A DNA stretch of 48,490 nt from Lachnospiraceae bacterium (GTDB lineage Bacteria > Bacillota > Clostridia > Lachnospirales > Lachnospiraceae), in contig JAGCVY010000004.1 in assembly GCA_017962105.1 (NCBI GenBank), forward strand, positions 1 through 48,490, read 5' to 3'. The first letter of the stretch is position 1. The number at the start of each line of letters is the position of its first letter. A program made the translations under genes and the position numbers. Below, one piece after another: positions 10,362-44,136 of the stretch. Under the pieces are notes generated by a model. That model saw nothing but the letters and a program-made list of their open reading frames with translations. It was not told where the DNA came from and ran no database searches.

Positions 10362-10372
10362 GGGTGCCGGTC

Positions 10373-22275: not shown

Positions 22276-22370
22276 CCGACTCACCTCCTGGGGCTTTATT
22301 CCGCAGGCTTTTTCGCAAACCTATATGTAAGCCAAAAATCCTGACCACCATACCTGCTTTTAGTAAACTA

Positions 22371-23962: not shown

Positions 23963-25153
23963 TTACTTTCGCAATCTTTTCATCACTGCCCACAAACGTT
24001 TTGGCGTTTTCGTTTTAATCCACAGTACAAAACGCTTCTTATTCCGTAAGTATTTCTTCGATGCTTTCGTCCATCCCCGTTCCCGCAATAGAGAAAAGAA
24101 GTCATCTCGAAAACCCGGAACCGCATACACTTTTCGTGTTTCCCCGAGCGTTAGATTATTAGCCGCAGCAATCTCCCGGCATTTCGCCTCGGAAACCATC
24201 AGTTGACTCTTTACGGCATCAAACAATTCGACACCTCTGTCGGTATTTACAAGCACTGCAGACACTCCGGCGGAAGCATCAAACTCTTTATGGTATTTTT
24301 CGACATCCCAGTAATCTCCGAACGTGATATCATCGACACGCTGTTCATATCGATACTGACAATCGAAGCAGGATCTTCGCACAATAACTTTCGAAAAGAA
24401 CGCAAAGTAATACGAATTGCTGACATACGACTGGTTTTTCCGCCTCCCAGACGTATTGTAAGTGATATGCACGCCCACACCGCCGGCATTCTTATCACGG
24501 AATTTCAAATCCAGCGCATCTAACGGAACATCCCTCGTTATCGTTTTTAAATACTCGCGAAACGCACGCGGGCTGGGTGAGCCCCCACAAAGAAATCCGA
24601 CGGTATACAGGTTATCATAACCCTTTCGCAGGTAGTTTTTCAATCCCGCAATCTGACACGACAGTCCGGAAAACAGAACAGTACGACCGGATTCCAGTTC
24701 TTCTTTGATTTCGGAAAATGTGTCACCTGCCCAGCTCCACACATACTTGGATCCGCGCATAGGCTCCGTTTCCGATTCATTTTCCGCTTTGCGAATTACA
24801 GCGTTATACTTCTCATCCCACACGCATCCGTAGACGATTCCGCCCCGCCTGAAGATTTCTCTTGCCAGCGCAGTAAAGAAACCGCCGGATGTGCTTTTCT
24901 TCAACACATCTGGGTCGGTTAACTGAATCGCATATGCTTTTTGTATGGTGTGCTTTTCCGGCAGGGTGATCGTGGGGCAAACCTGGCGGCACAGGCCGCA
25001 GTCAACGCATGTTTCTGCCGAAACTTTCGGAGTGGGAAATCCTTCCGCATCATCCCCAAAGACAATTGCGTTCCTGGGGCAGATTTTCATGCATGCTCCG
25101 CAGCCGGTGCAATTCTCGCGTTTTACCGAAGAAATATTGTTTGTTTCCGACAT
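23963..25153 (-). CDS. Fe-S protein of the coenzyme F420 hydrogenase beta-subunit (FrhB) family
   Basis: A 396-aa protein. Two 4Fe-4S motifs at the N-terminus, CTGCGACMKICP (15-26) and CVDCGLCRQVCP (48-59), are followed by an FrhB-type domain (KSTSGGFFTALA, FSGLSCQIAGLKNYL, FLCGGSPSPRAF) and a Cys-containing RRSCFDCQYRYE segment near 260. FrhB proteins bind FAD and move electrons between Fe-S centres and a flavin or F420. Clostridia lack F420 as a rule, so ferredoxin is the likelier partner here. The reaction in glycan clusters is not established. The start is fixed by GAGGAGG at 7 nt. No obvious redox substrate is encoded nearby unless the acyl or sugar product needs reduction. Confidence 0.85.
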   Translation of the reverse strand: MSETNNISSVKRENCTGCGACMKICPRNAIVFGDDAEGFPTPKVSAETCVDCGLCRQVCPTITLPEKHTIQKAYAIQLTDPDVLKKSTSGGFFTALAREIFRRGGIVYGCVWDEKYNAVIRKAENESETEPMRGSKYVWSWAGDTFSEIKEELESGRTVLFSGLSCQIAGLKNYLRKGYDNLYTVGFLCGGSPSPRAFREYLKTITRDVPLDALDLKFRDKNAGGVGVHITYNTSGRRKNQSYVSNSYYFAFFSKVIVRRSCFDCQYRYEQRVDDITFGDYWDVEKYHKEFDASAGVSAVLVNTDRGVELFDAVKSQLMVSEAKCREIAAANNLTLGETRKVYAVPGFRDDFFSLLRERGWTKASKKYLRNKKRFVLWIKTKTPKRLWAVMKRLRK

Positions 25154-25197: not shown

Positions 25198-25950
25198 TTA
25201 CGACGACAGTCTTCCGGAATCCACCGCGACAGATGATCCGGTGATGAAAGCTGCCTCCTCAGACAAAAGGAATGCAACCGTCGCAGCAATATTGTCCGGC
25301 TCACAGATGCCCAAATACTGTCTCTGCAGAATTCCCTTCAGGTCTTCCGAATCCCCGCCGTTATCCATGATCTGGTCAAAAATTGCGGTCCTCGTGATGC
25401 CCGGCATCACCGAATTAACACGGATTTTCTTGGATCCGAGCTCTTTGGCCATGCAGCGGATTGCGCTGTCCATCGCGGCCTTCGAAGCACAGTAGCCGGT
25501 TTTGCTCTGATTGCCTTCCTGCGATGCCACGGAAGAGATTCCTACGATGCTCATTCCCTCGTTAAAATTCTTCTTCTTGGTGATGATCCTAACAATCTCA
25601 ACAAAAGAGAAGAAATTGATGTCCATCATCTGTTTCAAATAGTCGTATACACACAGTTTGAGAGGACGTACGGTTCCGATTCCCGCGCTGTGGACAAATC
25701 CGTCCAGAGGACCTCTTTCCTTGATAATCGTCTCTATCTGCTCTGCAATCGCAGGAACATCCGAGAGATCCATCGCATAATATGCGTTTGCCCCGACAGA
25801 CTCTGCCGCAGCAGCAAGCTTCTCCGGGTCTCTCGCAACCATGATCACTTCGGCTCCGGCAGCCGTCAGTGTTCGGCTGATTGCTTCCCCGATTCCGGAG
25901 GATGCGCCGGTAACTAAAATTCTTTTGCTCGAAAAATCAAATTTTACCAT
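25198..25950 (-). CDS. SDR-family 3-oxoacyl-ACP reductase-like protein (A)
   Basis: A 250-aa classical short-chain dehydrogenase. NAD(P)-binding TGASSGIG (14-21), active-site serine near 139-140 (VGISSVAS) and YCASK with Y153 and K157 are all present. A C-terminal TGSSVAVDSG matches FabG-like enzymes. In this context it should reduce a 3-ketoacyl group on ACP to 3-hydroxyacyl. It follows the KASIII gene by 11 nt with a strong AAGGAG. It is paralogous to the second SDR at 33545-34315; shared stretches such as F(V/I)EIVRI and IVGISS show the two diverged from one ancestor, as did the two KASIII genes. A sugar reductase cannot be excluded. Confidence 0.88.
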   Translation of the reverse strand: MVKFDFSSKRILVTGASSGIGEAISRTLTAAGAEVIMVARDPEKLAAAAESVGANAYYAMDLSDVPAIAEQIETIIKERGPLDGFVHSAGIGTVRPLKLCVYDYLKQMMDINFFSFVEIVRIITKKKNFNEGMSIVGISSVASQEGNQSKTGYCASKAAMDSAIRCMAKELGSKKIRVNSVMPGITRTAIFDQIMDNGGDSEDLKGILQRQYLGICEPDNIAATVAFLLSEEAAFITGSSVAVDSGRLSS

Positions 25951-25961
25951 TGTTTATCTCC

Positions 25962-27047
25962 TTAAAACGGTTCGTTGATGATTCCCTCAAGGAATACCTC
26001 ATCAGTTTCTGTCACCGGCAGAATGTCATCCGTATTGATGGTTGCGGATGCAACTCCCCAGGACAAACCGACTCCGAAGCAACAGAACATGGTTTTAATC
26101 TTCTCACCGCTCACATCCCCGTAACGATCGCAGAGAGCGATTGTAGCGGCGGGCGCCGAGGTGTTGCCGTAGCGGTCAATGCAAAGCGGCATCTTTTCCA
26201 TCGGGATTTTAAATTTCTTGGCTAACTGCTTGGAAATATACTGGTTTGCTTGGTGGAACGCAAAACAATCGTACTTCTCCGGTTCCTCGCCTGTTTTTTC
26301 AATGAAATCGCAGATTGCCGCCGGTACTTCGGAAATCGTAAAGCTGAAAACGTCCGTTCCGTTCATATACGTATTATAGAGATTCCGGATGTTTCCGTCC
26401 GGCCACAATACATCCTCACGAACAGCATTCATGTTCCGATAACCGCCCGCCGGCGCGATAATCGCGTTGTAACCGGTTCCGTCCGTACGGAGAAGCACCT
26501 TCAACGGTGAATTTTCCTTCTTCTCCAAAAGGACTGCAGAACCGCCGTCGCCGAACAACATCGCCACGGACTTGTCCTCAGGATTAACCATCTTCGTCAG
26601 TGTCTCTCCGGTTATCAAAAGTGCTTTCGTGATATCGGAATTGGCCATCATCGAGCCGAGCACCTGAAGCCCGTATACGGTTGCGGAGCAACCGAGCCCG
26701 ATATCAAACGCCGCACAATCCTTCGACAGGCCCAGGCGCTTGTGTAAAACACAGGCCGTAGCCGGTCTGCGGTAGTCAACACTGTGCGCAATGAAAACGA
26801 GAGCCCCGATCTCCTCCCGATTGATCCCCTTGTGGGTCAGCAACCGCTCCGCAGCAACAAAGCCCAGATCCGACGCGGTCTGATGTTCAAGCGTTTTCCG
26901 GAATTCCTTCACGCCTGTCATCTTGGAAAACTTCTCAACAGCCTCCTGTCCGAACCGGTCTATGAAACTCTCAATTTCAACTCGCGGCGTAGGTACTGCA
27001 GATGCTACTCCGGCAATACTGATGTTGTTGTATTGAAAGAACGCCAT
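25962..27047 (-). CDS. 3-oxoacyl-ACP synthase III-like condensing enzyme (A)
   Basis: A 361-aa thiolase-fold enzyme with the KASIII catalytic triad C120 (DIGLGCSATVYG), H265 (AFHQANQY) and N295 (RYGNTSAPA). It should decarboxylatively condense malonyl-ACP with an acyl-CoA or acyl-ACP primer. It is longer than housekeeping FabH (about 315-330 aa) and has a short acidic C-terminal tail. It lies between the biotin carboxyltransferase module (24 nt upstream) and SDR A (11 nt downstream). Active-site spacing is nearly identical to KASIII B at 32440-33525, so they are a duplicated pair within one operon. Substrate specificity is unknown; short primers are expected given the lack of dehydratase and enoyl reductase genes. 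Confidence 0.9.
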   Translation of the reverse strand: MAFFQYNNISIAGVASAVPTPRVEIESFIDRFGQEAVEKFSKMTGVKEFRKTLEHQTASDLGFVAAERLLTHKGINREEIGALVFIAHSVDYRRPATACVLHKRLGLSKDCAAFDIGLGCSATVYGLQVLGSMMANSDITKALLITGETLTKMVNPEDKSVAMLFGDGGSAVLLEKKENSPLKVLLRTDGTGYNAIIAPAGGYRNMNAVREDVLWPDGNIRNLYNTYMNGTDVFSFTISEVPAAICDFIEKTGEEPEKYDCFAFHQANQYISKQLAKKFKIPMEKMPLCIDRYGNTSAPAATIALCDRYGDVSGEKIKTMFCCFGVGLSWGVASATINTDDILPVTETDEVFLEGIINEPF

Positions 27048-27070
27048 CTTTATCTCCCTGTTAAATCAAT

Positions 27071-28465
27071 CTACCTGATCCAGTCTACGGTAATGTCACG
27101 GACGAGCAGGTCGTCGCGTCTCTTAATAAACTCCGGTGCAACCTGAGGAAACATTGCACAGCTCAGAACATCTTCCTCTGTTTTCGTGATGTCACTGTAC
27201 ATCGCCTGAATCTTACTCAACTCGGGTTCCAAATTATCCGCCGGTCGACAGGTGATCACTTCGTCATCACCGATTGCCTTTCTCAGAACCTCTTCGTTGA
27301 CAGTTCCGGGAAGCTCCCCGTATTCTCCTCGAAGCAGGCCCTTCGATTCTTTCGTAAAACTCTTGTATCGTCCCATCAGCACATTCAAAACCGCCTGGGT
27401 CCCGACAATCTGGCTGGTCGGTGTAACTAACGGAGGATACCCGAAATCTTCCCGTACACGCGGAACCTCCGCAAGCACGGCTTCCATTCTATCCTCTGCA
27501 TTTGCCTGTTTCAGCTGCGACAGAAGATTCGAGAGCATGCCGCCCGGCACCTGATAAAGCAGTGTGTTCGGATCGACACGGAGAACCTTCGAACTGATGG
27601 TACCATCTTTCTCCATTTTCGCGGCAACCGCCTTAAAATGAACCGCGGCTTCGTTCAGCCTCTTCAAATCCAGCCCTGTATCTCTCTCGGTTCCCTTCAG
27701 TGAGGCGACAAGAGATTCTGTCGCCGGCTGGGAAGTTCCGTTGGCAAACGGCGACAAAGCGCAATCGACAATGTCAACACCCGCCATCGCTGCCATGAGA
27801 TAAACCATGGAGCCCGTTCCGGTAGTATTGTGCGTGTGAAGGTGAATCGGAATAGATACCTTCTCCTTCAACTTTTTGACCAGATTATATGCATCCATGG
27901 GAAGCAGAAGGTTCGCCATATCCTTGATGCAAATCGTGTCTGCACCCATCTGCTCCAGAACAATTGCCTTTTTGACAAAATACTCTTCGCTGTGAACCGG
28001 GCTTGTCGTATAACTCATTGCCGCTTCAACCAGCCCGCCGTATTTCTTCACCGCCTTAATGGATGCTTCCATATTCCGAACATCGTTCAATGCATCAAAA
28101 ATGCGGACGACATCGATTCCGTTCTCAATGGATTTTCGGCAGAAAGCTTCAATCATATCATCCGCATAATGGCGGTATCCGAGAAGATTCTGCCCGCGAA
28201 GAAGCATCTGCAGTTTCGTCTTCGGCAACGCCTTACGTAATGATCTCAACCTCTCCCACGGATCCTCATTTAGAAAGCGCATACACGAGTCAAATGTTGC
28301 CCCGCCCCAGCACTCAATGGACCAGTAGCCGATACTGTCCAAAATCTCGCACGCCGGCAGCATATCTTCCAGTTTCATGCGCGTAGCCGCCTGGCTCTGG
28401 TGCGCATCCCGCAAAATGGTGTCCGTAATCAGCAAAGGCTTCCTGCTTTCAAACACTTCACTCAT
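27071..28465 (-). CDS. Biotin-dependent 2-oxoacid carboxyltransferase (5S/OadA/PycB type)
   Basis: A 464-aa TIM-barrel carboxyltransferase that moves a carboxyl group between oxaloacetate/pyruvate and carboxybiotin. The metal site DTILRDAHQS (15-24), HLHTH with H210 and H212, and the carbamylatable lysine in CIKDMA (K181) are present. The protein ends after the conserved PycA-like C-terminal domain and has no fused biotin domain; the biotin carrier is the next gene upstream. Family alternatives are oxaloacetate decarboxylase alpha and the transcarboxylase 5S subunit. No OadB sodium pump and no biotin carboxylase are encoded with it. With the acyl-CoA carboxyltransferase two genes upstream, a transcarboxylase (oxaloacetate + acyl-CoA) is favoured. 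Confidence 0.9.
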   Translation of the reverse strand: MSEVFESRKPLLITDTILRDAHQSQAATRMKLEDMLPACEILDSIGYWSIECWGGATFDSCMRFLNEDPWERLRSLRKALPKTKLQMLLRGQNLLGYRHYADDMIEAFCRKSIENGIDVVRIFDALNDVRNMEASIKAVKKYGGLVEAAMSYTTSPVHSEEYFVKKAIVLEQMGADTICIKDMANLLLPMDAYNLVKKLKEKVSIPIHLHTHNTTGTGSMVYLMAAMAGVDIVDCALSPFANGTSQPATESLVASLKGTERDTGLDLKRLNEAAVHFKAVAAKMEKDGTISSKVLRVDPNTLLYQVPGGMLSNLLSQLKQANAEDRMEAVLAEVPRVREDFGYPPLVTPTSQIVGTQAVLNVLMGRYKSFTKESKGLLRGEYGELPGTVNEEVLRKAIGDDEVITCRPADNLEPELSKIQAMYSDITKTEEDVLSCAMFPQVAPEFIKRRDDLLVRDITVDWIR

Positions 28466-28475
28466 CCGATAACCC

Positions 28476-28862
28476 TCACTTCACCTCAAACAATACATCG
28501 CCGCCAGCGACGGTCCCACCTGCCGTGCAGTTCATAGCTGTGATCGTGCCATCGGCAGGAGCAAGGATTTCATTTTCCATCTTCATCGCCTCCAAAATCA
28601 GCACCAACTCTCCCGCTTTCACTGCGGAGCCCTCGCCCTTTTCAATCCGGATTACCGTACCGGGCATAGGCGCAACCACCGCTCCCGCGCTGCCTACAAC
28701 AGCCGCACTTGTAGCAGGCGCGCTCTCTGCAGATACCTTGGGAGCACTCACGGTCTCCTTATTCTCTTTCCGAGGCGCCACCGGAGAAGCAGCACCCTCC
28801 CCCATCAGTTCGATCTCCATCTCATAGGTCTTGCCTTCCAGTGTAATACGGTACTTGCTCAT
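28476..28862 (-). CDS. Biotin carboxyl carrier protein
   Basis: A 128-aa carrier. A short N-terminal MSKYRITLEGKTYEMEIE strand is typical of OadA/MmdC-type carriers. It is followed by an Ala/Pro-rich linker (about 25-60) and a biotinyl domain with the biotinylation motif EAMKMEN (K94). The biotin arm should swing between the two carboxyltransferases encoded on either side. The start overlaps the stop of the 59-aa gene (ATGA), and the 5S-type gene begins 10 nt after it. Length and linker match decarboxylase gamma/BCCP subunits rather than fatty-acid AccB, which is usually longer and partnered by AccC. Confidence 0.93.
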   Translation of the reverse strand: MSKYRITLEGKTYEMEIELMGEGAASPVAPRKENKETVSAPKVSAESAPATSAAVVGSAGAVVAPMPGTVIRIEKGEGSAVKAGELVLILEAMKMENEILAPADGTITAMNCTAGGTVAGGDVLFEVK

Positions 28863-29038
28863 GCTTTCGAATCCTCCAGTTGATATTTGTGATACGTGAT
28901 ATTGTTCTTCTCGATGTATTCTTCCAGGTTGCTCTTATAAACCTCCCGGAAGGAACGGACAACAACTCGTTTTGTATCGGTTTTATTTTCTTCTGCTACA
29001 GCGGCCACCGCCATCGCCAGAACCTTTTCCAACTCCAT
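28859..29038 (-). CDS. 59-aa small subunit-like protein of the biotin carboxyltransferase module
   Basis: A 59-codon gene starting MELEKVLAMAVAAVAEENK with a middle RVVVRSFREVYKSN segment. It has a good AAAGGAGAA ribosome-binding site, starts 23 nt after the acyl-CoA carboxyltransferase stop and overlaps the biotin carrier start by 4 nt. By eye it resembles the soluble C-terminal helix pair of OadG/MmdD gamma-delta subunits (Ala-rich helix then VVRS(I/F)R), but it has no membrane helix. It may bridge the two carboxyltransferases in a soluble complex. Gamma/epsilon decarboxylase subunits are the nearest comparison; homology is inferred from pattern only. Confidence 0.7.
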   Translation of the reverse strand: MELEKVLAMAVAAVAEENKTDTKRVVVRSFREVYKSNLEEYIEKNNITYHKYQLEDSKA

Positions 29039-29061
29039 TGCGTATTTCTCCTTTCGGTCCT

Positions 29062-30612
29062 TTACAGCGGGATATTTCCGTGCTTCTTCGCTGGATGAAC
29101 GCGATCCTTCGACTTCAGCATCCGGAAGGCTGCCGCAATCTTCTCTCTGGTCTCCTCAGGAAGGATGACCTCATCAACATAGCCATGTTCGGCAGCAATA
29201 TAGGGATTCATAAACTTCTTATTGTATTCATCGAGAAGCTCTTCCTTCTTGGCCTTCGGATCCTCCGCCTGCTCTATCGCCTTCTTTCCGATGATGGACA
29301 CCGCTCCCGATGCTCCCATAACGGCAATCTCGGCAATCGGCCATGCATATACAACATCCGCGCCGGTTCCCTTACTGTTCATGGCAATATAGGCTCCACC
29401 GTATGCTTTGCGCATGATTAGACCTACCTTAGGAACTGTTGCCTCGGAATATGCAAACAACATCTTCGCTCCGTGTCGGATAATGCCCCCGTGCTCCTGC
29501 TGGCTTCCCGGAAGGAACGCCGGTACATCAACAAGCGTAAGTAGCGGAATATTGAAGCAGTCGCAGAAACGAATGAATCTGGCAGCCTTGTCTGATGCAT
29601 TAATCTCCAGCGAGCCAGCCATGCACTGGCTCTGATTTGCAATGATACCGATTGTGTCACCGTCGAGACGAGCAAAACCGACTACGATGTTTTTCGCGAA
29701 ATCCGCCTGAACCTCAAAGAAACTGTTCATGTCGACAAATGTATCAATCACCGCTCTGACATCGTACGGTTTTCTGGAGTCCACGGGCACAATATCACTG
29801 ATGCTCGCACAGTTGTCTCTTGTTGTTCCTTCAACATGCATCGGTCTGTCCTGGTTGTTCTGCGGCAGATATCCGAGAAGTTGACGCACACCGTTCAGAC
29901 AGGATAGATCGTTCGGATACACAAAATGTGCTACACCGGACGTCGAGCTGTGCACCGCAGCGCCTCCAAGGTCGGCGGAGGAGATTACCTCTCCGGTCAC
30001 CGATTTTACAACTGCAGGGCCGGTAATATACATTTGACTGTTTTTCTCCGCCATGAAAATATAGTCGGTAATCGCCGGGGAATAACAGGCTCCTCCTGCG
30101 CAGGGACCGAGAATTACCGAAATCTGCGGAATCACGCCGGATGCAATCGTATTGCGGTAGAAGATGTCCGCGTAACCGGAAAGACCGTCAATGCCCTCCT
30201 CAATTCTCGCTCCTCCGCTGTCGTTGATTGAAATAAACGGGGCTTTCATCTCCATCGCCTTGTCCATGGCGCGACAGATCTTCATGGCCTGAGCCTCTCC
30301 GAGCGATCCGCCTCCGACTGTAAAATCCTGGGATGCCGCAAAAGCGATCCGCCCGTGAATATAACCGTAACCGGTAACCACGCCGTCTCCGGGGCGTTTC
30401 TTCTTATCCATTCCGAAGTCAATCGCACGGGATGTAATCATATCATTGATCTCGACAAATGTCCCGTCATCAAAAAGCGCTTCCATGCGTTCGCGCGCTG
30501 TCAGTTTGCCGGAAGCATGCTGCTTGGCAATCCGCTCCGAACCGCCTGCCGCAGCAACATTTTCCCTGCGCTGATTGAGATCATCAATACTGTTTTTCCA
30601 CTGTTGTTCCAT
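29062..30612 (-). CDS. Acyl-CoA carboxyltransferase (PccB/MmdA/12S type)
   Basis: A 516-aa single-chain carboxyltransferase of the propionyl/methylmalonyl-CoA family, normal length. The crotonase-like halves carry SGGARIEEG (132-140) and CAGGACYSPA (171-180) in the N-terminal part and AYGGAYIAM in the C-terminal part. The N-terminal segment TARERMEALFDDGTFVE is typical. It exchanges CO2 between biotin and an acyl-CoA (acetyl-CoA/malonyl-CoA or propionyl-CoA/methylmalonyl-CoA). It is the first gene of the four-gene module and lies between the polymerase and the 59-aa gene. In this acyl-assembly context malonyl-CoA is the logical product, but the residue that sets acetyl versus propionyl preference cannot be read by eye. 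Confidence 0.93.
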   Translation of the reverse strand: MEQQWKNSIDDLNQRRENVAAAGGSERIAKQHASGKLTARERMEALFDDGTFVEINDMITSRAIDFGMDKKKRPGDGVVTGYGYIHGRIAFAASQDFTVGGGSLGEAQAMKICRAMDKAMEMKAPFISINDSGGARIEEGIDGLSGYADIFYRNTIASGVIPQISVILGPCAGGACYSPAITDYIFMAEKNSQMYITGPAVVKSVTGEVISSADLGGAAVHSSTSGVAHFVYPNDLSCLNGVRQLLGYLPQNNQDRPMHVEGTTRDNCASISDIVPVDSRKPYDVRAVIDTFVDMNSFFEVQADFAKNIVVGFARLDGDTIGIIANQSQCMAGSLEINASDKAARFIRFCDCFNIPLLTLVDVPAFLPGSQQEHGGIIRHGAKMLFAYSEATVPKVGLIMRKAYGGAYIAMNSKGTGADVVYAWPIAEIAVMGASGAVSIIGKKAIEQAEDPKAKKEELLDEYNKKFMNPYIAAEHGYVDEVILPEETREKIAAAFRMLKSKDRVHPAKKHGNIPL

Positions 30613-30645
30613 TCTTTCTGTGTACCTCTCTGGTTTATGTTATTA

Positions 30646-31998
30646 TCACAGCACGGATTCGGTTTTTCGCGAAAACAACCGTATATTCGGTTTAAATTTC
30701 TTGCCGACAAGAAACCACCGAATCAACAACAATTCCACCATGTATTTGATATAAAGATGCGAAAGGAAATCAAAGAAGGTGGAATAAAAGTACATGAGAA
30801 ATACATACGCAATATACGCATACATCAGCAACCGAAAATCAATCGGATTATCCCCACACGGTTTTCTGCTCTTACAATACAGCACGGTATAAAACGCACC
30901 AAACAAAGCCATGAGCACAAAAAAGCCCCAGAACCCGAACTCCACGTAAGCAGGACGAAATGCCGTGGGGGCGTTTCCAATAGATACCCCTGTCGGACTA
31001 TACATATAATCGTAATAAAAATTATAATTCCCGGGCCAACCAATCAGCACTGTCAGTGATTGGTTCAAATAGTAGAACGTTCTTTGTCCGAAAACTTCCG
31101 GCTTCACAATCGGACTGGTCCAAAGCTGGTCAAGAATTGCAATCGGGCTGCCTGCGTAAAAAGTAACATAGTAAAGCGGATCCTTATCCGAAGTTCGTCC
31201 GACAAATTCCCGAATCCCCGAAAACAATGCCGCCAAACCAACAAGCGAAATTGCCATCCGCCGAATCATTCTTCGCGTGGATTTGTTTTTTCTCCAACCG
31301 ACTGCACGTTTGTGAATTGTGTATGCGACAATCAATACAACCACCCAGAGGCGGATCATATTGGAGCGATCGCCTTGAATAAATGTTGTCAACGAGTAAA
31401 GAATAACCGGAACCCAAAACAACGAAATTTTCTTTTTTGAAGCAATCAGATTGTTGCCCACAATATAAGCATAGACAACACCAATCATCTTACTAGCCTG
31501 CGCAAGGTTCCTCGTTAAAATCGACATCTTCAGCGCAGGATCATTAACATCTCTCGACGAATCCGTAGATAACAGACGATACTTCCCGATGGAATCAAGC
31601 AATCCGGAAGCGCCGCTGACTTTCTGAACATGTCTGAAAACCAAAAAGAGCGCCAGCAGCTGAAACGCGATAATCAGATACGTCTTAAATGGATGGATTA
31701 TAATTTCTTTCGGCGCCACAACCTCGTGAGAAAACGAATATTTTCCGAGATTGGGGTATCGTGAAAGACAAACCCCGATAATCCCTCCAACCATCGTTGC
31801 TATGATTCCCGCTGCAATCAGCCCTGTTGATTTCGGCGAAAACTCCAATCCCCATCGTTCTTCGTTGTAATATGTGCAGAAACAGCCAAAAAGGAACACC
31901 AGCGCCACAGCGGTGGGCGGTGCAAGCAGATCGGTGTCAAAAATCACAAAAGATAACAAAAACAACAGGCTGAGCACAACCAGCGTCACTGGCAGCAT
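30646..31998 (-). CDS. wzy: Wzy-like polysaccharide polymerase
   Basis: A 450-aa membrane protein with about ten to twelve hydrophobic segments and a large extracytoplasmic loop (about residues 265-350, containing GIREFVGR, YYVTFYAGSP and NAPTAFRPAYVEFG). This fits the oligosaccharide repeat-unit polymerase (Wzy/O-antigen ligase-like) family, which joins undecaprenyl-linked repeat units outside the membrane. Sequence conservation in Wzy is low, so assignment rests on topology, the loop and the neighbouring flippase and Wzz-like genes. The ATG at 31998 is preferred because GGAGG sits 9 nt upstream; the earlier ATG at 32016 overlaps that site. A terminator-like hairpin lies between it and the upstream ACP gene. 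Confidence 0.8.
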   Translation of the reverse strand: MLPVTLVVLSLLFLLSFVIFDTDLLAPPTAVALVFLFGCFCTYYNEERWGLEFSPKSTGLIAAGIIATMVGGIIGVCLSRYPNLGKYSFSHEVVAPKEIIIHPFKTYLIIAFQLLALFLVFRHVQKVSGASGLLDSIGKYRLLSTDSSRDVNDPALKMSILTRNLAQASKMIGVVYAYIVGNNLIASKKKISLFWVPVILYSLTTFIQGDRSNMIRLWVVVLIVAYTIHKRAVGWRKNKSTRRMIRRMAISLVGLAALFSGIREFVGRTSDKDPLYYVTFYAGSPIAILDQLWTSPIVKPEVFGQRTFYYLNQSLTVLIGWPGNYNFYYDYMYSPTGVSIGNAPTAFRPAYVEFGFWGFFVLMALFGAFYTVLYCKSRKPCGDNPIDFRLLMYAYIAYVFLMYFYSTFFDFLSHLYIKYMVELLLIRWFLVGKKFKPNIRLFSRKTESVL

Positions 31999-32037
31999 TA
32001 TGCAAATCCTCCACAAGACAACAGTGCGAAATGCAAG

Positions 32038-32075
32038 TTAAAAAGGCATGTGCGCTATAACTCCCCATACATGCC
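32038..32075 (-). terminator. Terminator-like hairpin between ACP and polymerase genes
   Basis: GGCATGT (32045-32051) pairs with ACATGCC (32069-32075) and the minus strand continues TTTTTAAC. Its place inside the operon suggests partial termination, which would raise ACP relative to downstream products. Confidence 0.6.
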
Positions 32076-32104
32076 GTAAATCATCATTTTCTCAGGCATC
32101 ATAA

Positions 32105-32134
32105 TCGGGATAATATGATCACACATTATCCCGA
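32105..32134. promoter_or_regulatory. Perfect 10-bp inverted repeat after the ACP gene
   Basis: TCGGGATAAT (32105-32114) and ATTATCCCGA (32125-32134) around a 10-nt loop, 26 nt past the ACP stop. It has no T tract and may be an mRNA 3'-end stabiliser or processing site acting with the hairpin at 32045-32075. Confidence 0.5.
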
Positions 32135-32160
32135 AAACGATTTCCCTTTCGTTGACGTAA

Positions 32161-32382
32161 TTACTTGTTCATCAACGCAACAATGTCCCCAACGGTCTCA
32201 AAACCCTTGATTACATCACCGGTCAACTTAACGCCGAACTCATCCTCCATGAGAACGATCAAAGACAGTTTTGCCATGGAATCATACTCATCAATGTCGT
32301 CCAAAGCCTTGTCTACAGTAAGATCACCCTCATCTAACTCAAGCATATCCTCGAGCAGTGCAAGTTTTTCACGTTCAGTCAT
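32161..32382 (-). CDS. Acyl carrier protein
   Basis: A 73-aa acidic protein with the phosphopantetheine attachment serine S35 in EYDSMAKLSLI (DSM in place of the usual DSL). The four-helix ACP pattern is clear, and the length is normal. It should carry the growing acyl group between FabD, the two KASIII enzymes and the two reductases of this operon. The Shine-Dalgarno GGAGG is 8 nt before the ATG. A dedicated ACP separate from housekeeping acpP is typical of secondary acyl or polyketide pathways. No phosphopantetheinyl transferase is encoded here, so the cellular AcpS or Sfp must load it. A hairpin pair follows immediately. Confidence 0.93.
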   Translation of the reverse strand: MTEREKLALLEDMLELDEGDLTVDKALDDIDEYDSMAKLSLIVLMEDEFGVKLTGDVIKGFETVGDIVALMNK

Positions 32383-32439
32383 GTTTCATTCCTCCGTCAT
32401 AATAATTCTATATACATCAGCTGAAGCTGTTGTACTCAT

Positions 32440-33525
32440 TTACTCCGTCTTCTTAAGCTCACCTTCGTCATCGTACTCGTCGGAGTAGCCGTCCTCATAA
32501 ATATCATATCCGTCCGTAATCGGAAGGATGTCCTTGACATTGATCTTAAATCCGACGACCCCCCAGGAAAGACCGACTCCGAACGAACTCGTCAGAAGAT
32601 TGACTTCTCTGTCTTCCTCTACTGTTCCGTATCTGTCCACAATTGCAAGCGGAACCGAGCAACCGCTCGTATTGCCGTAGCGGTCAAGACATACCGGAAC
32701 ATTCTCCATCGGCATTCCGACTCGTTTTGCAATGTTCTTCAGGATCATCATATTGGCCTGATGAAGCACCAGATTGTCATAATCCTCAATCTTCGTGTCT
32801 GTCTGTGCCAGATACTCCTCGAGCAGCTTGGGCACCTCACTGATTGTGAAATTGAACACAGCAATATCATCACCGGGAACACTCTGCGGTCCCTCGGGAT
32901 GTCTCCACGCTCCATACGGGATTGACAACGCCTTATGTCTGGTACCGTCGCTCATCAAGGCAGAACTGAAGCCGCCCTCCCCACTCTTCTCAAGAAGAAT
33001 CGCCGCACTTGCATCTCCGAAGAGAAGGCCGGTATTGGAAGACATGACTTTCTTTCTGTGCCTTCTCCCTCTCGCAAGAGAATCGCCGACAGTTACAAGA
33101 GCCTTGGTCGCATTGGACGAGTTCAAAATACTCGCGGCAAGCGAAACACCATATACAAACCCGGAACAGCCGAGGTTCACGTCAAAAACTAGACAATCCA
33201 TGGAAAGGCCGAGTCTCTTCTGGATTGTAAGCGCAGTGGAAGGAGTCCGGTAATCCGGCGTCTGTGTGAGATTTATTAAAACACCGATCTCCTCCGGCTT
33301 ATAATACCCCGAATCCATAATCTGCTTTGCAGCAGTATAGGAAAAGTCCGCCGCAGTCTGGGTAAAATCGCTCTTTCTCTTCTCCAAAATTCCGGTATTT
33401 TTCATAAAGTTCTTGATGTACTTGGGATCCGGATTGTCCAACTCACTTGTTACATCAATTACTGTCGGAGGAACAGACGCTGCGATTGCTGAAATCTTCA
33501 CGCCGTCATATTTACTGAAAACCAT
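32440..33525 (-). CDS. 3-oxoacyl-ACP synthase III-like condensing enzyme (B)
   Basis: A 361-aa KASIII homologue with triad C120 (DVNLGCSGFVYG), H255 (VLHQANMM) and N285 (RYGNTSGCS). It has an acidic C-terminal tail (about residues 340-361, rich in Asp, Glu and Tyr) not seen in ordinary FabH. It should condense a second acyl primer with malonyl-ACP. Relative to KASIII A it differs in the loop before the phosphate-binding region (ARGRRHRKKV near 151-160) and in residues around the primer tunnel, so the two probably accept different primers. The start at 33525 follows AAAGGAG; an upstream in-frame ATG at 33567 would overlap the SDR B stop. Confidence 0.9.
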   Translation of the reverse strand: MVFSKYDGVKISAIAASVPPTVIDVTSELDNPDPKYIKNFMKNTGILEKRKSDFTQTAADFSYTAAKQIMDSGYYKPEEIGVLINLTQTPDYRTPSTALTIQKRLGLSMDCLVFDVNLGCSGFVYGVSLAASILNSSNATKALVTVGDSLARGRRHRKKVMSSNTGLLFGDASAAILLEKSGEGGFSSALMSDGTRHKALSIPYGAWRHPEGPQSVPGDDIAVFNFTISEVPKLLEEYLAQTDTKIEDYDNLVLHQANMMILKNIAKRVGMPMENVPVCLDRYGNTSGCSVPLAIVDRYGTVEEDREVNLLTSSFGVGLSWGVVGFKINVKDILPITDGYDIYEDGYSDEYDDEGELKKTE

Positions 33526-33544
33526 TCTTTCGTACTCCTTTCTA

Positions 33545-34315
33545 TTAGCAGCAGGCAAATCCGCCATCTACCGGAAGATGAACGCCGGTAATCGTATGGG
33601 ATACGGGCGAAAGTAGGAAAATGATCGCGTTGGCAACATCCGCAGGTGCATTCATACCGAGGAACTGGCGGGGATTCGCCTGAATCTTCATTTCCGTATC
33701 TTTCATCGTAGCTTTCAGTTCCATATACTCCGTATACATTGCGGTTGCTGTAGCTGCAGGCTGAATGGTGTTCACACGGATATTCTTCTCCCCGAGTTCT
33801 TTCGCCATACAGCGCATTGCTCCGTCCATTGCCGCCTTGGAGGCTCCGTATGCGGCCTGTGCTGTTGCTCCGTGAGTTGCCGCGATGGAAGAGATGCCGA
33901 CGATACTCAATCCTTCATTGTAACGCCCCTTCTTGCTAAGGATTCGAACAATTTCAAAAAAAGAGTAGAAGTTTACAAGCATGATCTTGTGAAGCCGCTC
34001 AAATTTATAATTTATGAGCGGAAGATTCTTTACAATGCCGGCACACTGAACATATCCGTCAAACGGACCCGTCTCCTTGATAATCCCGACAACAATATCT
34101 TCGAGTTCTTCAATCTTGGAAAGATCCACGGCATGAATGCTATGTCCTTCCCCTTTGAGCATGGACAGGGTTTCCTTAAGTCCCTCTTCCTGAAGATCCA
34201 TAATGGAAACTTTCGCCCCCATCTCGCTCAGAATAATTGCCGTCTGTCTTCCGATTCCGGAAGCGCCGCCGGTAATCAAAACATGCTTTCCCTCCATCCG
34301 AATATAATCGTACAT
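33545..34315 (-). CDS. SDR-family 3-oxoacyl-ACP reductase-like protein (B)
   Basis: A 256-aa short-chain dehydrogenase with TGGASGIG (15-22), serine near 142-143 (VGISSIAA), YGASK with Y156 and K160, and TGVHLPVDGGF near the end. It is paralogous to SDR A and is placed directly before KASIII B, as SDR A is placed directly after KASIII A. The expected reaction is reduction of a beta-ketoacyl-ACP to beta-hydroxyacyl-ACP with NADPH. The start at 34315 has GGGAGG at 6 nt. Two ketoreductases with no dehydratase in the operon imply that hydroxyl groups are kept in the product. Confidence 0.88.
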   Translation of the reverse strand: MYDYIRMEGKHVLITGGASGIGRQTAIILSEMGAKVSIMDLQEEGLKETLSMLKGEGHSIHAVDLSKIEELEDIVVGIIKETGPFDGYVQCAGIVKNLPLINYKFERLHKIMLVNFYSFFEIVRILSKKGRYNEGLSIVGISSIAATHGATAQAAYGASKAAMDGAMRCMAKELGEKNIRVNTIQPAATATAMYTEYMELKATMKDTEMKIQANPRQFLGMNAPADVANAIIFLLSPVSHTITGVHLPVDGGFACC

Positions 34316-34365
34316 AGTCTACCTCCCTGTTATTCCTTTTTTCAGCAAACAACTTTTTTTGCGAC

Positions 34366-35013
34366 CTATGGCCAATATAATAACTCATTCACATCATAAA
34401 TGAAACCCCCAAAATGACCGGGATATACACGAATTCCTTCGGAGATATGCCTAAGTCTCGGAACACTGATTGTTTCCCACTGTTTTCTACTTCCTCCGGG
34501 CGCTCCGAAATTGGCCTTAAAATTCTTGATCAGACTGTCTCCGGAGAAGAAATTTTCACCGTCCAGCAGAATCCCGATACTTCCGGGCGAATGCCCCGGG
34601 AGTTCAAAAAGCTGCCATTTATGCCCCAGCCAACCATACTCCTGTCGATCCGTAAACACATCATCCGCTTGGCAGCGATATTCGGGATCATATGGCGGAA
34701 CTTCGTCCGCGTTCGCCCATGTCTGCAATTCACAGAAAGTACGGAAATACTGAGCGAGGTTTTTCTTCGGGTTGCAAATGTTCGCCGCGCATGCGTTGCT
34801 GCAGATTACCGGAACGTTCGTCTCTTTCTTCCAGAGATTGACTCCGGATATGTGATCATAGTGTTCGTGCGTCAGAAGTATGCACTCTGTCTGCAGTCCT
34901 TTTACCGGTTCAATATTCTCGAACGGGTCAATTACAACCGCTCGGTCTCCCTCAACGACCACATACATGTTTGAAGACAATAGCTTTGATTCATATTTTC
35001 GGATCTCAATCAA
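34366..35013 (-). CDS. Metallo-beta-lactamase-fold hydrolase
   Basis: A 215-aa MBL-fold protein with the metal motif THEHYDH (H49, H51, D53, H54), PGHSPGS, FSGDSL and YPGHFG, so all expected zinc/iron ligands look present. A TTG start at 35013 is proposed: TTGA overlaps the fabD stop and the frame fits the family start. The longer in-frame ATG at 35127 would bury 115 nt in fabD and adds unrelated sequence. MBL-fold proteins beside ACP and KAS genes often act as thioesterases or lactonases, so release or proofreading of an acyl-ACP is likely. A glyoxalase-type or other hydrolysis is the alternative. Confidence 0.82.
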   Translation of the reverse strand: MIEIRKYESKLLSSNMYVVVEGDRAVVIDPFENIEPVKGLQTECILLTHEHYDHISGVNLWKKETNVPVICSNACAANICNPKKNLAQYFRTFCELQTWANADEVPPYDPEYRCQADDVFTDRQEYGWLGHKWQLFELPGHSPGSIGILLDGENFFSGDSLIKNFKANFGAPGGSRKQWETISVPRLRHISEGIRVYPGHFGGFIYDVNELLYWP

Positions 35014-35939
35014 GTGTTCAGAGCCTCCAGTGTCTCCTGCAGCGTTTTCACATTTTCCACACGGAAAATCCGAACATCCGTCAACGTCTTCTTCACAAGA
35101 CCGGACAACGTCTTGCCGGCGCCGCATTCGATGAACGTGTCAATTCCATCTTCCTGCATCTTCTTCAGGGTCTTAACCCACTGCACGGGACTCATCGCCT
35201 GCTTTACCAAAAGCCCCGCCGCCAGGGACCCGTCCATCAACGGTTCGCCGTCGACATTCATATATACCGGAACGGAAGGATTACTAAAGGAGATTTCGGT
35301 AAATTCCTTCTCAAGGCGCCTTGCAGCCGGTTCCATCATCGCGCAGTGGAACGGAGCGCTCACCGCCAGTTTCACATAGCGAAGACCTTCCGCCTCAGCA
35401 ATCGCACACGCCTCGTCAACTCCGGCCACAGAACCGGAAACAACGGTCTGAACAGGACTGTTATAATTTGCAGCTACCACATATCCCTTCATCACTCTCC
35501 CGCAGATATTTTCAACCTGTTCCGACGTAGCACCGATAAATGCTGCCATAGCTCCTTCACCCGGAGCAACCGCTTCCTGCATGGCATCCGCGCGGATCTG
35601 AATGAGACGGAAGACTTCCTCAAGAGAGATGGCCCCCGCATAGGCAAGCGCCGCATACTCTCCCAGGGAGAATCCTGCAACTGCATCCGCGTGAATTCCA
35701 TGCGCCTTCAGTGTCATTGCTGCGGCGATATCCCCGGTCAGCATGCATGGCTGTGTGTTATGGGTCAGATTCAATTCCTCTTGTGTTCCCTCGAAGCAGA
35801 GGCCGGATATGCTCCTGCCCAAAACCTCATCCGCCTTGTTGAAAACTTCCTTTGCCGCAGATTCCTCAGCATACAGATCCTTCATCATTCCGGGAAACTG
35901 CGCTCCCTGTCCGGAAAATAAGAAACCGATCTTTGCCAT
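35010..35939 (-). CDS. fabD: Malonyl-CoA:ACP transacylase
   Basis: A 309-aa transacylase with LFSGQGAQFPGM at the N-terminus, the active-site serine S91 in GFSLGE, R116 in IRADAMQ for malonyl binding and H198 in SAPFHCAMM. These four features define FabD-type malonyl transferases. It loads malonyl groups onto the operon's ACP. The ATG at 35939 follows GGGAGG; the stop overlaps the TTG of the MBL-fold gene. Its presence shows that the KASIII enzymes use malonyl-ACP and that the pathway carries its own full loading system, in line with the malonyl-CoA-forming carboxyltransferase module downstream. It may duplicate a housekeeping fabD elsewhere. Confidence 0.93.
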   Translation of the reverse strand: MAKIGFLFSGQGAQFPGMMKDLYAEESAAKEVFNKADEVLGRSISGLCFEGTQEELNLTHNTQPCMLTGDIAAAMTLKAHGIHADAVAGFSLGEYAALAYAGAISLEEVFRLIQIRADAMQEAVAPGEGAMAAFIGATSEQVENICGRVMKGYVVAANYNSPVQTVVSGSVAGVDEACAIAEAEGLRYVKLAVSAPFHCAMMEPAARRLEKEFTEISFSNPSVPVYMNVDGEPLMDGSLAAGLLVKQAMSPVQWVKTLKKMQEDGIDTFIECGAGKTLSGLVKKTLTDVRIFRVENVKTLQETLEALNT

Positions 35940-35953: not shown

Positions 35954-37387
35954 CTATTTCTTCTTTCGTACTTTTTTGATCAAATGTTTGATCTCTTCAC
36001 GCTTGTATATCGCTATCGCAACAACTACCAGAAAGCATACCGCAATCACCGAATACCGGACTACCGTGTTCTGATACAGCAGAAGCGCAGTCGGGATAAG
36101 CATGATTGCGGCAATCAGCACTGCTGCAAACGTTTTCGCCGACAAAATCTCTTTAATCTCCATCTTCAGCGTGACCCGGTAATGAAGCACACACAGAAGC
36201 AGAAGACACAGAACAGTGGCATAACAAACGGCCATATAGCCGAACAGATACACTCCCAGTATATCCAGCACAACATTCAACGCGGCAACTCCTCCTGTCA
36301 GAATTGCAGCATATCGCGGTTTTTTGTTATACGTTTCTATATTTACAAAAGTCGCTGTTAAAACAGTGAAAATTCCGCACAGAATATTCGGTGGCAGCAG
36401 ATAGATTGCATCCTTATACTTCTGCCCGCCTAATATATGAATAATCTCCGGTCCGATTGCCAGCGCCGCAAATGTAGCTAGGACGACTGCCCACAAATAC
36501 ACGCGGTAAAACTTCTTAACATCCTTGTGTCTGCGTGTTTTCAACATATCATACAGCCAAGGCGCCCACGCCATATTAATCGTCTGAACCAGAAGCAGAA
36601 TAATCTGGCTTGTGCTGTGTGTCACCGAAACATTACTGACATTTTCGGGGGTACACATATGCTTCAGAATAATGGTGTCGGCTGTCAAAAGCACGCGGCT
36701 TCCGATGTAACTGAAAACCAGAGGCAGTCCTAACCGTATTGCGTACTTCCAATACGAAACTCTGATCGTTCTGGAACAATGCAGAAAATATATGTAAAAT
36801 GCAACTCCTAGTGCAATATACAACACGTGTTGGCCGATAATCCGACCGAACAGCGGATCGCTGTCTTTCATCAGTAGGACCATCACAAGCGCGATAATCG
36901 GCGCAAGAATCGACGCTCCAAGCGATATTGTCGAGCTGACCTTGTACTTATATTCCACGCGTTGTTTTGTCTGAAACATATATATCGCCGGAACTGTGAA
37001 CAAATAGGCAAACATCACATACATATATTCCTTCTTCATCAGAAAGAGCTTGTCAAACATATGCGGGAAAGCAAGGTATAAACCGAACAACACTCCGGCA
37101 ATCAACGTACTCAGGCAGAGTGACGATGTAATATAACTCTTGTATTCTTCTTCGGAATAATCAAACCGTGCAAGGTTCAGCGTTCCGTGTATTTCCAAAC
37201 TACAGAAGATTATCAAAACCGATTGCCAGGAGCAGAAGACTGAAAAATCACCGTACTGTGCCTTAGTCATCAGTCTGGTGAAAATCGGCATCGTAATGAA
37301 CACCATTCCTTTAGTTAAGAACATCGAAGCGACATACCAAAAACCGGATTTCAAAAGCAAACGTTTTCCGACTACTTTATCTGCCAT
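35954..37387 (-). CDS. wzx: Wzx-like lipid-linked oligosaccharide flippase
   Basis: A 477-aa integral membrane protein with about 14 hydrophobic segments of the polysaccharide transporter/MOP family. Characteristic stretches are SGFWYVASMFLTKGMVFITMP at the N-terminus, PTIFTRL-like IFTRLMTKAQYGDFSVF and the mid-protein RLGLPLVFSYIGSRVL. It should flip the undecaprenyl-diphosphate-linked sugar unit to the outer face. It is placed between fabD (14 nt downstream) and the PglD-like protein gene (15 nt upstream). The basic C-terminal tail (KREEIKHLIKKVRKKK) is typical. One flippase plus one polymerase fits a Wzx/Wzy-dependent route. Confidence 0.88.
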   Translation of the reverse strand: MADKVVGKRLLLKSGFWYVASMFLTKGMVFITMPIFTRLMTKAQYGDFSVFCSWQSVLIIFCSLEIHGTLNLARFDYSEEEYKSYITSSLCLSTLIAGVLFGLYLAFPHMFDKLFLMKKEYMYVMFAYLFTVPAIYMFQTKQRVEYKYKVSSTISLGASILAPIIALVMVLLMKDSDPLFGRIIGQHVLYIALGVAFYIYFLHCSRTIRVSYWKYAIRLGLPLVFSYIGSRVLLTADTIILKHMCTPENVSNVSVTHSTSQIILLLVQTINMAWAPWLYDMLKTRRHKDVKKFYRVYLWAVVLATFAALAIGPEIIHILGGQKYKDAIYLLPPNILCGIFTVLTATFVNIETYNKKPRYAAILTGGVAALNVVLDILGVYLFGYMAVCYATVLCLLLLCVLHYRVTLKMEIKEILSAKTFAAVLIAAIMLIPTALLLYQNTVVRYSVIAVCFLVVVAIAIYKREEIKHLIKKVRKKK

Positions 37388-37402: not shown

Positions 37403-38053
37403 TTACTTCTCCCTAACACTCTTCGCCGGAACTCCACCCGCATGGGTTCCAGGTTTCAGATTTTTCACTACAAGACTTCCCGGTTCAACAACACATCTGT
37501 CACCGATGCTCCTCCCTACAGCAAGGAACACGTGATCCCCCACAAAACAGTCATTTCCGATTGAATCTCCTGCAATATTGGCATACCGCATTACCGTGCT
37601 GTACTCTCCGATCTTATGCCCGGACAGCATGGAATGGATTACCGTTGCAAAATTTCCAATCTCAAGCCCCGGTTTCGCCGAATAAAGCGCGACAATACAT
37701 CCTTCGCCGACGTTCAACCACTTGTCAAACGCCAGCATCCAGGGCGCGATAACCGTCTCAAACCGGACATTCTTCTCTCGAAGAAACTGTACCGTCATCC
37801 GTTTTCTCGCTGGATCCTTCACTCCGAGAACAATGCTGACACCTTCCGTAGGAACCCAATCGTTCACCGTTCCCAGAACCGCTGCCGGAAACTTCGTTCC
37901 CGCCGCATCCGGTCCATCATTCAGGAAAACAAATCCGTCAATATGGTACCCCTGTTCACGATTCCTCTGTGCATACCATTTGTTGCTTTCCTCGAGGATA
38001 CTGAAAACCTCCAACCCAAACAAACCGTCAGTCACTATAACAACATTCTGCAT
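37403..38053 (-). CDS. PglD-like left-handed beta-helix protein (B)
   Basis: A 216-aa protein with an N-terminal Rossmann-like domain (MQNVVIVTDGLFGLEVFSI) and a C-terminal hexapeptide-repeat beta-helix, the sugar N-acyltransferase (PglD/NeuD) plan. In PglD the catalytic base is a histidine in an E-H-(D/E) segment; here the aligned positions read SMLSGHKIG, so the His is displaced by about two residues or absent. Nearly 40% of residues seem to align with its upstream neighbour, so they are paralogues. The start at 38053 is the second ATG after GAGGAG. It may transfer the acyl group to an amino sugar, or serve as a non-catalytic partner. Confidence 0.72.
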   Translation of the reverse strand: MQNVVIVTDGLFGLEVFSILEESNKWYAQRNREQGYHIDGFVFLNDGPDAAGTKFPAAVLGTVNDWVPTEGVSIVLGVKDPARKRMTVQFLREKNVRFETVIAPWMLAFDKWLNVGEGCIVALYSAKPGLEIGNFATVIHSMLSGHKIGEYSTVMRYANIAGDSIGNDCFVGDHVFLAVGRSIGDRCVVEPGSLVVKNLKPGTHAGGVPAKSVREK

Positions 38054-41760: not shown

Positions 41761-41776
41761 CTTCTTTCGTAATAAT

Positions 41777-44102: not shown

Positions 44103-44136
44103 TTCAAAAACATGTTTCATGAAAGGAGTGGTGGGA

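Follow-up and report, generated by a model that had tools for sequence, protein, structure and literature searches.

Flavobacterium psychrophilum carries a 3,5-dihydroxyhexanoyl group on the amino sugar Qui2NAc4N, and the associated genes encode two ketosynthases (KS), one ketoreductase (KR), an acyl carrier protein (ACP) and PglD-, PglE-, PglF- and PglC-like proteins (PMC6519341). The glycan structure was measured in that study, and the gene roles are predictions (PMC6519341). We analyzed 48,490 nucleotides of a Lachnospiraceae bacterium (assembly GCA_017962105.1, contig JAGCVY010000004.1, positions 1 to 48,490; hereafter the window). Its minus strand contains a 20-gene operon that combines glycan genes with an acyl-assembly line of FabD, ACP, two 3-ketoacyl-ACP synthases III (KASIII; KS_A and KS_B), two short-chain dehydrogenases/reductases (SDR_A and SDR_B) and a metallo-β-lactamase (MBL)-fold hydrolase. 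Among these genes lies a trio of carboxyltransferase genes predicted to supply the line with malonyl-CoA. Decoration of this kind is already known in Gram-negative bacteria; its occurrence in a Gram-positive bacterium and the line's private malonyl supply appear to be new. A malonyl supply driven by oxaloacetate, tied to such a line and found where acetyl-CoA carboxylase (ACC) is missing, is the part that a specialist would not expect.

The trio (27071–30612) encodes a 12S-type carboxyltransferase, a biotin carboxyl carrier protein (BCCP) and a 5S/OadA-type subunit. It lies inside the acyl-line interval, and the original prediction, made from the letters of the window, had left both the trio and the Wzy polymerase of the same interval out of its list. 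The best profile match of 12S was the mmdA model, with a score below the cut-off. Its best solved match was 1vrg, which we take to be a Thermotoga maritima protein, and the P. shermanii 12S structure (1on3) aligned over residues 7–515. The 5S subunit contains what we take to be its metal and Lys motifs. No biotin carboxylase was found in the window; the only PF02785 match of the genome (2.59 Mb, 105 contigs, 95.9% complete) was on contig C35, where the genome's own ACC genes lie within the fatty acid synthesis (FAS) cluster. No homologue of OadB or OadG was found in the window or in the 21 related loci described below. The genome's own pump-type set (mmdA, OadG-like protein, BCCP, OadB and OadA) is on contig C63, and OadB matched there. 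ACC was rejected as the identity of the trio because biotin carboxylase is missing from the set, and a sodium pump was rejected because OadB is missing. By subunit content, the trio is a putative biotin transcarboxylase, with carboxyl transfer as its predicted activity.

Genome contigs were scanned once with KS_A, giving 22 loci: 21 loci (L012–L032) and one Bacillus locus (L033). With this query only close relatives are reached, and several loci are bounded by contig ends; L021, L022 and L024 are cut, L021 and L024 measuring no more than about 4 kb. By title, the 21 loci are mostly from metagenome-assembled genomes of ruminant gut, and L027 is titled Chloroflexi. The 12S subunit was searched in 19 of the 21 KS-locus genomes (all but those of L021 and L024). 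A close 12S (76–97% identity) was present in 13 of them, each time beside KS, ACP or glycan genes. Ten lie within the fetched loci (L012, L015, L016, L019, L023, L025–L028 and L030). The other three are 2.2 kb beyond the end of L020 in G049, where the overlap of both stretches was confirmed, next to KS_B and SDR_B in G046, and next to ACP and glycan genes at a contig end in G050. BCCP and 5S follow 12S in nine of the 13; the stretch ends at 12S in L019, L023, L026 and L027. L029 (G056) has a 12S of 49% identity in its locus.

A class sample of 391 genomes was used to see where else this 12S occurs. At 75% identity or above, it occurred in the window's genome and otherwise in just six genomes, all of g83, a genus of another family; this presence rejected the idea that the close 12S is exclusive to KS loci. 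The six g83 proteins are 75–86% identical to the window's 12S, and the three stretches read (L086–L088) contain the trio without OadB or OadG. No PF02785 match was found in these six genomes (97–100% complete). All six have FabF, and all six FAS clusters run FabH-FabK-FabD-FabG-FabF-FabZ without acc genes. Biotin carboxylase was matched in four further g83 genomes of the sample; AccB, AccC and AccD are in all four of their FAS clusters, and no 12S was found in these genomes (E up to 1e-200). The FAS clusters of all ten genomes were read; together with the three 12S stretches, the g83 stretches are L086–L088, L098, L101, L102 and L104–L110. Any g83 genome with neither gene would escape this listing. 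In G298, a lone FabF copy (L099) lies apart from the cluster. Biotin carboxylase was unmatched in 259 of the 391 genomes. Lack of a match is therefore nothing unusual by itself; what carries information is a missing biotin carboxylase in a genome whose FAS cluster is otherwise complete and which has a close 12S. The simplest reading of these gene sets is that the trio makes malonyl-CoA instead of ACC in g83, and it looks as though a transcarboxylase replaced ACC in the membrane lipid synthesis of these bacteria. Class-wide, any 12S (E up to 1e-200) was anti-correlated with biotin carboxylase (11/101 vs 121/290), to which we gave little weight, since kinship confounds the comparison and some of the matches may be pump-type enzymes. 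Among 14 control genomes, T. maritima was the one without a PF02785 match, and Thermotogales are described as having no ACC-type biotin carboxylase (PMC3199775).

Six of the 19 KS-locus genomes (G010, which contains L012, and G045, G049, G051, G055 and G057) were examined for biotin carboxylase and FabF. No biotin carboxylase match was found in five of the six, with a completeness figure for G010 only (97). FabF had no match in G045, G051 and G057, which also match no biotin carboxylase. If these absences are real, the 12S or trio of the glycan locus is the sole malonyl source found in these three genomes, with no FAS to borrow from. The FAS cluster of G010 (L100:1421–6852) encodes FabZ, FabF, a FabK-FabG fusion (4831–6570) and ACP. 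It contains no FabD or acc genes, the search for FabD having covered this cluster. The operon of G010 may serve both the glycan line and fatty acid synthesis.

The acyl line itself was largely as originally predicted. FabD, ACP, the two KASIII, the two SDRs and the MBL-fold protein lie in one minus-strand run at 25198–35939, with profile matches and intact motifs. The Cys-His-Asn triad, claimed to be intact, was found in both window KS and in all 45 KS rows of the alignment. A KASIII turned into an acyltransferase by loss of Asn was rejected, as Asn is present in 45 of 45 rows. The phosphopantetheine Ser is kept in 27/27 ACP rows and the Ser-Tyr-Lys residues in 41/41 SDR rows. In FabD, GFSLGE and PFH are presumably functional motifs, PFH being of the malonyl type, and the MBL motifs HEHYDH, GHS, SGD and GHF are presumably metal ligands; the MBL-fold hydrolase is a probable thioesterase or editing enzyme. 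The predicted lack of a dehydratase and an enoyl reductase held as well: BLAST with the genome's own copies as queries (E up to 1e-4) found no FabZ, FabK or FabF homologue in the window.

KS_A and KS_B are the sole PF08541 matches in the window's genome. PF08541 is unmatched in 16 of 21 other genomes of the same genus, nine of the 16 being at least 90% complete, and G010, the one other same-genus genome with the operon, scores like the window. This distribution indicates that the KS pair is not a relic of fatty acid synthesis. A 62-row KS tree was built with reference rows of housekeeping FabH-type proteins from ten fetched genomes and the Bacillus protein. KS_A falls in a clade of 25 rows (support 93/88) and KS_B in a clade of 16 rows plus two further fetched rows (100/98). 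The two clades join (99/98), apart from the housekeeping rows and the Bacillus protein, and four rows from L031, L032 and L033 that BLAST had called KS_B fall outside the KS_B clade. Housekeeping FabH was rejected as the identity of both KS on the PF08541 distribution in the genus and the separate clades. FabH is missing from the FAS cluster of the window's genome (L010, G000:C35), and the genome yielded no KASIII besides KS_A and KS_B.

At the position of a Phe in the Bacillus FabH-like protein, which we take to be the gate of the FabH acyl pocket, Arg was found in all 16 KS_B clade rows examined; among the 25 KS_A rows, Thr stands there in 16, Ile in four, Ser in two, Leu in two and Lys in one. 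These differing residues suggest that KS_A and KS_B probably take different primers. A structure model made for KS_B (pLDDT 81.9) had the thiolase fold, with 4efi as its best PDB match and many FabH also matched; PqsD and BioZ were among the fold matches. By fold and Cys-His-Asn triad, both proteins are assigned to KASIII, with condensing activity predicted.

Both KS clades were found in 15 of the 21 loci, and the KS_B of L017 is on another contig of its genome (L083). ACP is present in 20 loci, NeuD/PglD and PglC in 15 each, MBL in 14 and FabD in 13, and 18 loci have homologues of any window glycan gene. FabK and FabF were found in none of the 21, and a FabZ-like protein only in L031. Three KS occur in L023, L028 and the divergent L031. 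The 13 loci with exactly one KS per clade have one SDR (six loci), two (six) or three (one), counts that leave out the FabG-like extra SDR of L013 and L029. Tandem ACP copies, two or three per locus and almost identical, were found in five loci: L018 (from 11120), L014, L016, L026 and L030. The FabZ-like protein (L031:16834–17310) lies in a divergent KS/SDR/ACP locus, and a dehydrating variant of the acyl line may exist. In the sister locus L012 (KS_A 98% identical), an AMP-binding ligase (L012:746–2362) and a third SDR (L012:12939–13709) were found, both missing from the window. Outside this set, a KASIII, an SDR and a GNAT acetyltransferase lie between pseI and pseG on p3 of Azospirillum brasilense (L046), suggesting that this set acylates pseudaminic acid.

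For the sugar, PglE-, PglF- and PglC-type genes are present at the family level (PF01041, PF02719 and PF02397). The canonical His of PglD-like enzymes, H141 of PerB, was located in alignments through the H141A and H141N structures. An enzyme with this His is present in eight (L013, L014, L016–L018, L022, L026 and L028) of the 15 loci with NeuD; in L022 a second canonical one is on the other strand. The window, L012, L015, L019, L023, L027 and L030 have a NeuD1+NeuD2 pair without it, and L029 has a NeuD1-like protein alone. In NeuD2 of the window and L012, a His is one place off the canonical site. The NeuD1 model was poor in its second half (mean pLDDT 69.5). The pair may be one hetero-oligomeric acyltransferase with a changed site. 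The ATP-grasp protein has a close homologue only in L012 among the 21 loci, with weak matches (19% and 26%) in L026 and L029, and was therefore judged an unlikely general acyl ligase.

Taken together, the genes probably specify a Wzx/Wzy-type surface glycan whose 4-amino sugar bears a short polyhydroxyacyl amide built from central metabolites. In this proposal, a soluble transcarboxylase (5S, BCCP and 12S) would form malonyl-CoA by carboxylating acetyl-CoA at the expense of oxaloacetate, with no ATP-driven biotin carboxylase, and FabD would put the malonyl group on the dedicated ACP. The two specialized KASIII, each beside an SDR here, would condense and reduce, two rounds from acetyl-CoA yielding 3,5-dihydroxyhexanoyl-ACP; with no dehydratase, the hydroxyls would stay on the chain. 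One or both PglD-like proteins would transfer the chain to UDP-QuiNAc4N, the bacillosamine-type sugar made by CapD and DegT. PglC would begin the lipid-linked unit, Wzx would export it and Wzy would polymerize it. The MBL-fold hydrolase would probably remove stalled or wrong acyl-ACP. The genes are best read, as originally predicted, as serving a hydroxyacyl group on the operon's 4-amino sugar, whereas a choice between C4 and C6 as the exact product goes further than the evidence; within the reading as a whole, we put the C6 dihydroxy product a little short of an even chance. The argument that two KS and two KR mean two rounds did not hold, since six of the 13 loci with one KS per clade have one SDR, as does F. 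psychrophilum, so the KR count gives no number of rounds.

Several observations weigh against the polyhydroxyacyl glycan. PglC was the sole glycosyltransferase found in a scan of the window proteins, which does not account for the backbone, and the canonical His is missing in both NeuD1 and NeuD2. KS and SDR numbers differ in many loci, and the divergent L031 (19.8 kb) has KS, SDR and ACP with none of the window's glycan genes. The close 12S is missing in six of the 19 KS-locus genomes (G042, G043, G047, G056, G058 and G059), and the KS/SDR/ACP/NeuD locus of G331 (L089) has no 12S in its stretch or in the class list; the trio is thus not obligatory. The window's genome retains its own AccABCD and FabD. 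The g83 split (p = 0.0048) comes from one genus, whose ten genomes are not independent. What the sequences show is the gene content, intact motifs in the acyl-line proteins and the trio, the conserved linkage and the contrast between trio and ACC in g83; malonyl rather than methylmalonyl as the product, the two rounds, the acceptor sugar, the acyltransferase step and the role of the MBL-fold hydrolase are deduced from them.

Among other explanations, one condensation round per chain deserves the most attention, and we regard it as unlikely. Each KS would then make a 3-hydroxybutyryl-type group, and two NeuD proteins would acylate two amino groups, giving C4 groups and not a C6 diol. The overlap of KS_A with SDR_A, the adjoining KS_B and SDR_B and the two NeuD proteins of the window agree with this, as does the fact that known KASIII enzymes mostly use CoA primers, not acyl-ACP. 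However, loci with a single NeuD (L013, L014, L016, L018, L026 and L028) still have both KS clades, and Arg in KS_B against mostly Thr in KS_A at the Bacillus Phe position suggests different primers. F. psychrophilum, too, has two KS and a C6 diol (PMC6519341). A free small polyketide or signal, which the MBL-fold hydrolase could release as an acid, is very improbable. KASIII do occur in other pathways, as the PqsD and BioZ matches recall, and L031 combines KS, SDR and ACP without the window's glycan genes. Nevertheless, such genes accompany KS in 18 of 21 loci, two of the remaining three being the short pieces L021 and L024, NeuD and PglC are each in 15, and Wzy sits inside the KS run of the window.

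The product and destination of the trio were weighed in the same way. Carboxylation of propionyl-CoA to methylmalonyl-CoA, leading to a branched acyl group, would suit the matches of 12S to the mmdA model (below its cut-off) and to the propionyl-CoA carboxylase and P. shermanii 12S structures. Yet relatives close to the trio are found in genomes whose FAS clusters are complete except for ACC and need malonyl-CoA, and PFH in FabD is presumably the malonyl-type motif. The residue after GGAY in 12S is Ile, a place where Asp presumably marks propionyl-specific PccB; this point is weak, since other propionyl enzymes have Leu or Val there. We consider the methylmalonyl route improbable. Hardly more probable is that FabD and the trio mainly feed membrane fatty acid synthesis and merely ride in a glycan operon. 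G010 would fit this, having the operon, a FAS cluster without FabD or acc genes and no biotin carboxylase match in the genome, and so would G049, which has FabF, no biotin carboxylase and its only close 12S in the glycan locus. But the window's genome has its own FabD, AccABCD, FabZ, FabK and FabF; three KS-locus genomes without a FabF match, for which there is no completeness figure, retain the close 12S; and the 21 loci contain no FabK or FabF, and a FabZ-like protein in L031 only.

The polyhydroxyacyl glycan can be joined with the g83 result in a wider proposal, which we hold tentatively, as possible but somewhat doubtful. The oxaloacetate-driven trio would be the private malonyl source of an ACC-independent glycan-acyl line in gut Clostridia. 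It would be the only malonyl-CoA route in hosts without FAS or biotin carboxylase, and it would have replaced ACC in the membrane lipids of another genus. Chain length would be set by how many KS are present and of which kind (two in the window, three in L023 and L028), giving a modular surface chemistry. If true, polyketide-style acylation of amino sugars would extend to Gram-positive gut anaerobes, and the origin of malonyl-CoA in bacteria without ACC would have a testable answer. A malonyl supply driven by oxaloacetate would also spare ATP and could be used in enzyme engineering.

The 20 genes run on the minus strand from 43909 down to 22868 with no gap between neighbors above 199 bases (Table 1). 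The G+C content of the run is 0.488, against 0.58 at 1–12400 and 0.59 at 45508–48490, and is mixed across 12 to 23 kb. Just one of 21 other same-genus genomes (G010) gave the same scores for the KS pair. From the low G+C and this rarity, the operon looks acquired. Terminator-like sites numbered 25 (18.1 ± 5.1 in shuffles) and promoter-like sites in the window showed no excess over shuffles; neither fixes the transcript borders. The MBL reading frame as listed is overlong, and TTG at 35013, with GGAGG upstream, is a better start; NeuD2 probably starts near 38053. Upstream of the operon on the opposite strand (44074–45439) are a helix-turn-helix protein and then a DUF6036 nucleotidyltransferase. 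Adjoining the operon end on the minus strand (17983–22284) is a protein of 1433 residues that combines seven fn3 repeats with DUF6273 and a weak transglutaminase-like domain.

Table 1. Genes of the operon in order of transcription, with predicted products.
Gene product	Position	Strand	Evidence
CapD/PglF-like membrane UDP-GlcNAc 4,6-dehydratase	41777..43909	-	PF02719 388 bits, PF13727
DegT/PglE-like 4-aminotransferase	40441..41820	-	PF01041 238.9 bits; start may be 41760 or 41751
PglC-like phosphoglycosyltransferase	39699..40322	-	PF02397 201.4 bits
PylC-like ATP-grasp protein	38724..39695	-	NF009406 522.4 bits (cut-off 271); PF21360
NeuD1, PglD/VioB-like, without canonical catalytic His	38067..38708	-	TIGR03570 126 bits (below cut-off 160.8); nearest PDB VioB
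NeuD2, second PglD-like protein, adjoins NeuD1	37403..38053	-	TIGR03570 71 bits (below cut-off); alignments
Wzx flippase	35954..37387	-	PF01943 76.5 bits
FabD, malonyl-CoA:ACP transacylase	35010..35939	-	TIGR00128 279.7 bits (cut-off 260.9); GFSLGE, PFH
MBL-fold (glyoxalase II-like) hydrolase	34366..35013	-	PF00753; HEHYDH, GHS, SGD, GHF; TTG start
SDR_A, 3-ketoacyl-ACP reductase-like	33545..34315	-	PF13561/PF00106; Asn-Ser-Tyr-Lys; 23-base overlap with KS_A
KS_A, KASIII clade A	32440..33567	-	PF08541/PF08545; Cys-His-Asn triad; tree
ACP, DSM phosphopantetheine site	32161..32382	-	PF00550 31.9 bits; alignment
Wzy-type oligosaccharide repeat polymerase	30646..32016	-	TIGR04370 114.5 bits (cut-off 40)
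12S-type carboxyltransferase, acyl-CoA half of putative biotin transcarboxylase	29062..30612	-	PF01039 612.6 bits; PDB 1vrg, 1on3
BCCP, 1.3S-type biotin carrier	28476..28862	-	PF00364; AMKM biotin site
5S/OadA-type carboxyltransferase, putative oxaloacetate half	27071..28465	-	PF00682+PF02436; PRK09282 709 bits (cut-off 402)
KS_B, KASIII clade B	25962..27047	-	PF08545+PF08541; triad; Arg94 at probable acyl-gate position
SDR_B, second ketoreductase-like SDR, adjoins KS_B	25198..25950	-	PF13561/PF00106; Asn-Ser-Tyr-Lys
FrhB-domain iron-sulphur protein	23963..25153	-	PF04432/PF04422
Polysaccharide pyruvyl transferase-like protein	22868..23944	-	PF04230 87.3 bits

The original prediction cited F. 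psychrophilum, a precedent that the published structure bears out (PMC6519341), and spoke of a new glycan acylation pathway. The word new was too strong given this Gram-negative precedent and the Parabacteroides capsule loci with KASIII, SDR and ACP genes. In our literature search, neither a Gram-positive example nor a natural malonyl supply by a trio of this type came up, which does not prove that none has been described. One of the closest described loci, wfpC–wfpG of the R1-group O-polysaccharide of F. psychrophilum, shares with the window two ketosynthases, ACP, ketoreductase, PglD/E/F/C-like genes and a Wzy-type polymer (PMC6519341). It differs in belonging to a Gram-negative lipopolysaccharide, and the discussion of that paper names one reductase and mentions no malonyl-CoA:ACP transacylase, MBL or carboxylase genes (PMC6519341). 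The capsule loci of Parabacteroides distasonis (NZ_OY725812 and NZ_OY725780) likewise have KASIII, SDR and ACP genes, plus an acetyltransferase gene. Unlike the window, they have one annotated KASIII and an AMP-binding protein, with no annotated FabD or transcarboxylase in the stretch; their KS are 36.1% and 32.5% identical to KS_B. Type II FAS (FabH-FabK-FabD-FabG-FabF-FabZ) shares FabD, ACP, KASIII and FabG-like parts with the window, which differs by the lack of FabF, FabZ and FabK and by two KASIII of their own clades.

For the trio, mmc (methylmalonyl-CoA carboxyltransferase) appears among the gene abbreviations of engineered 3-hydroxypropionate strains, with the reaction not stated there (PMC9960984). 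The Na+-pumping oxaloacetate and methylmalonyl-CoA decarboxylases, such as the genome's set on C63, have homologous mmdA, BCCP and OadA subunits. That set also has OadB and an OadG-like protein, whereas the trio and the 21 loci have no homologue of either. The methylmalonyl-CoA carboxyltransferase of Propionibacterium (12S/1.3S/5S) is a three-subunit biotin transcarboxylase without biotin carboxylase. The trio resembles it in its subunit set and in the match of 12S to 1on3, and differs in its place within a glycan operon and in its proposed product, malonyl-CoA for the growth of an ACP-bound chain.

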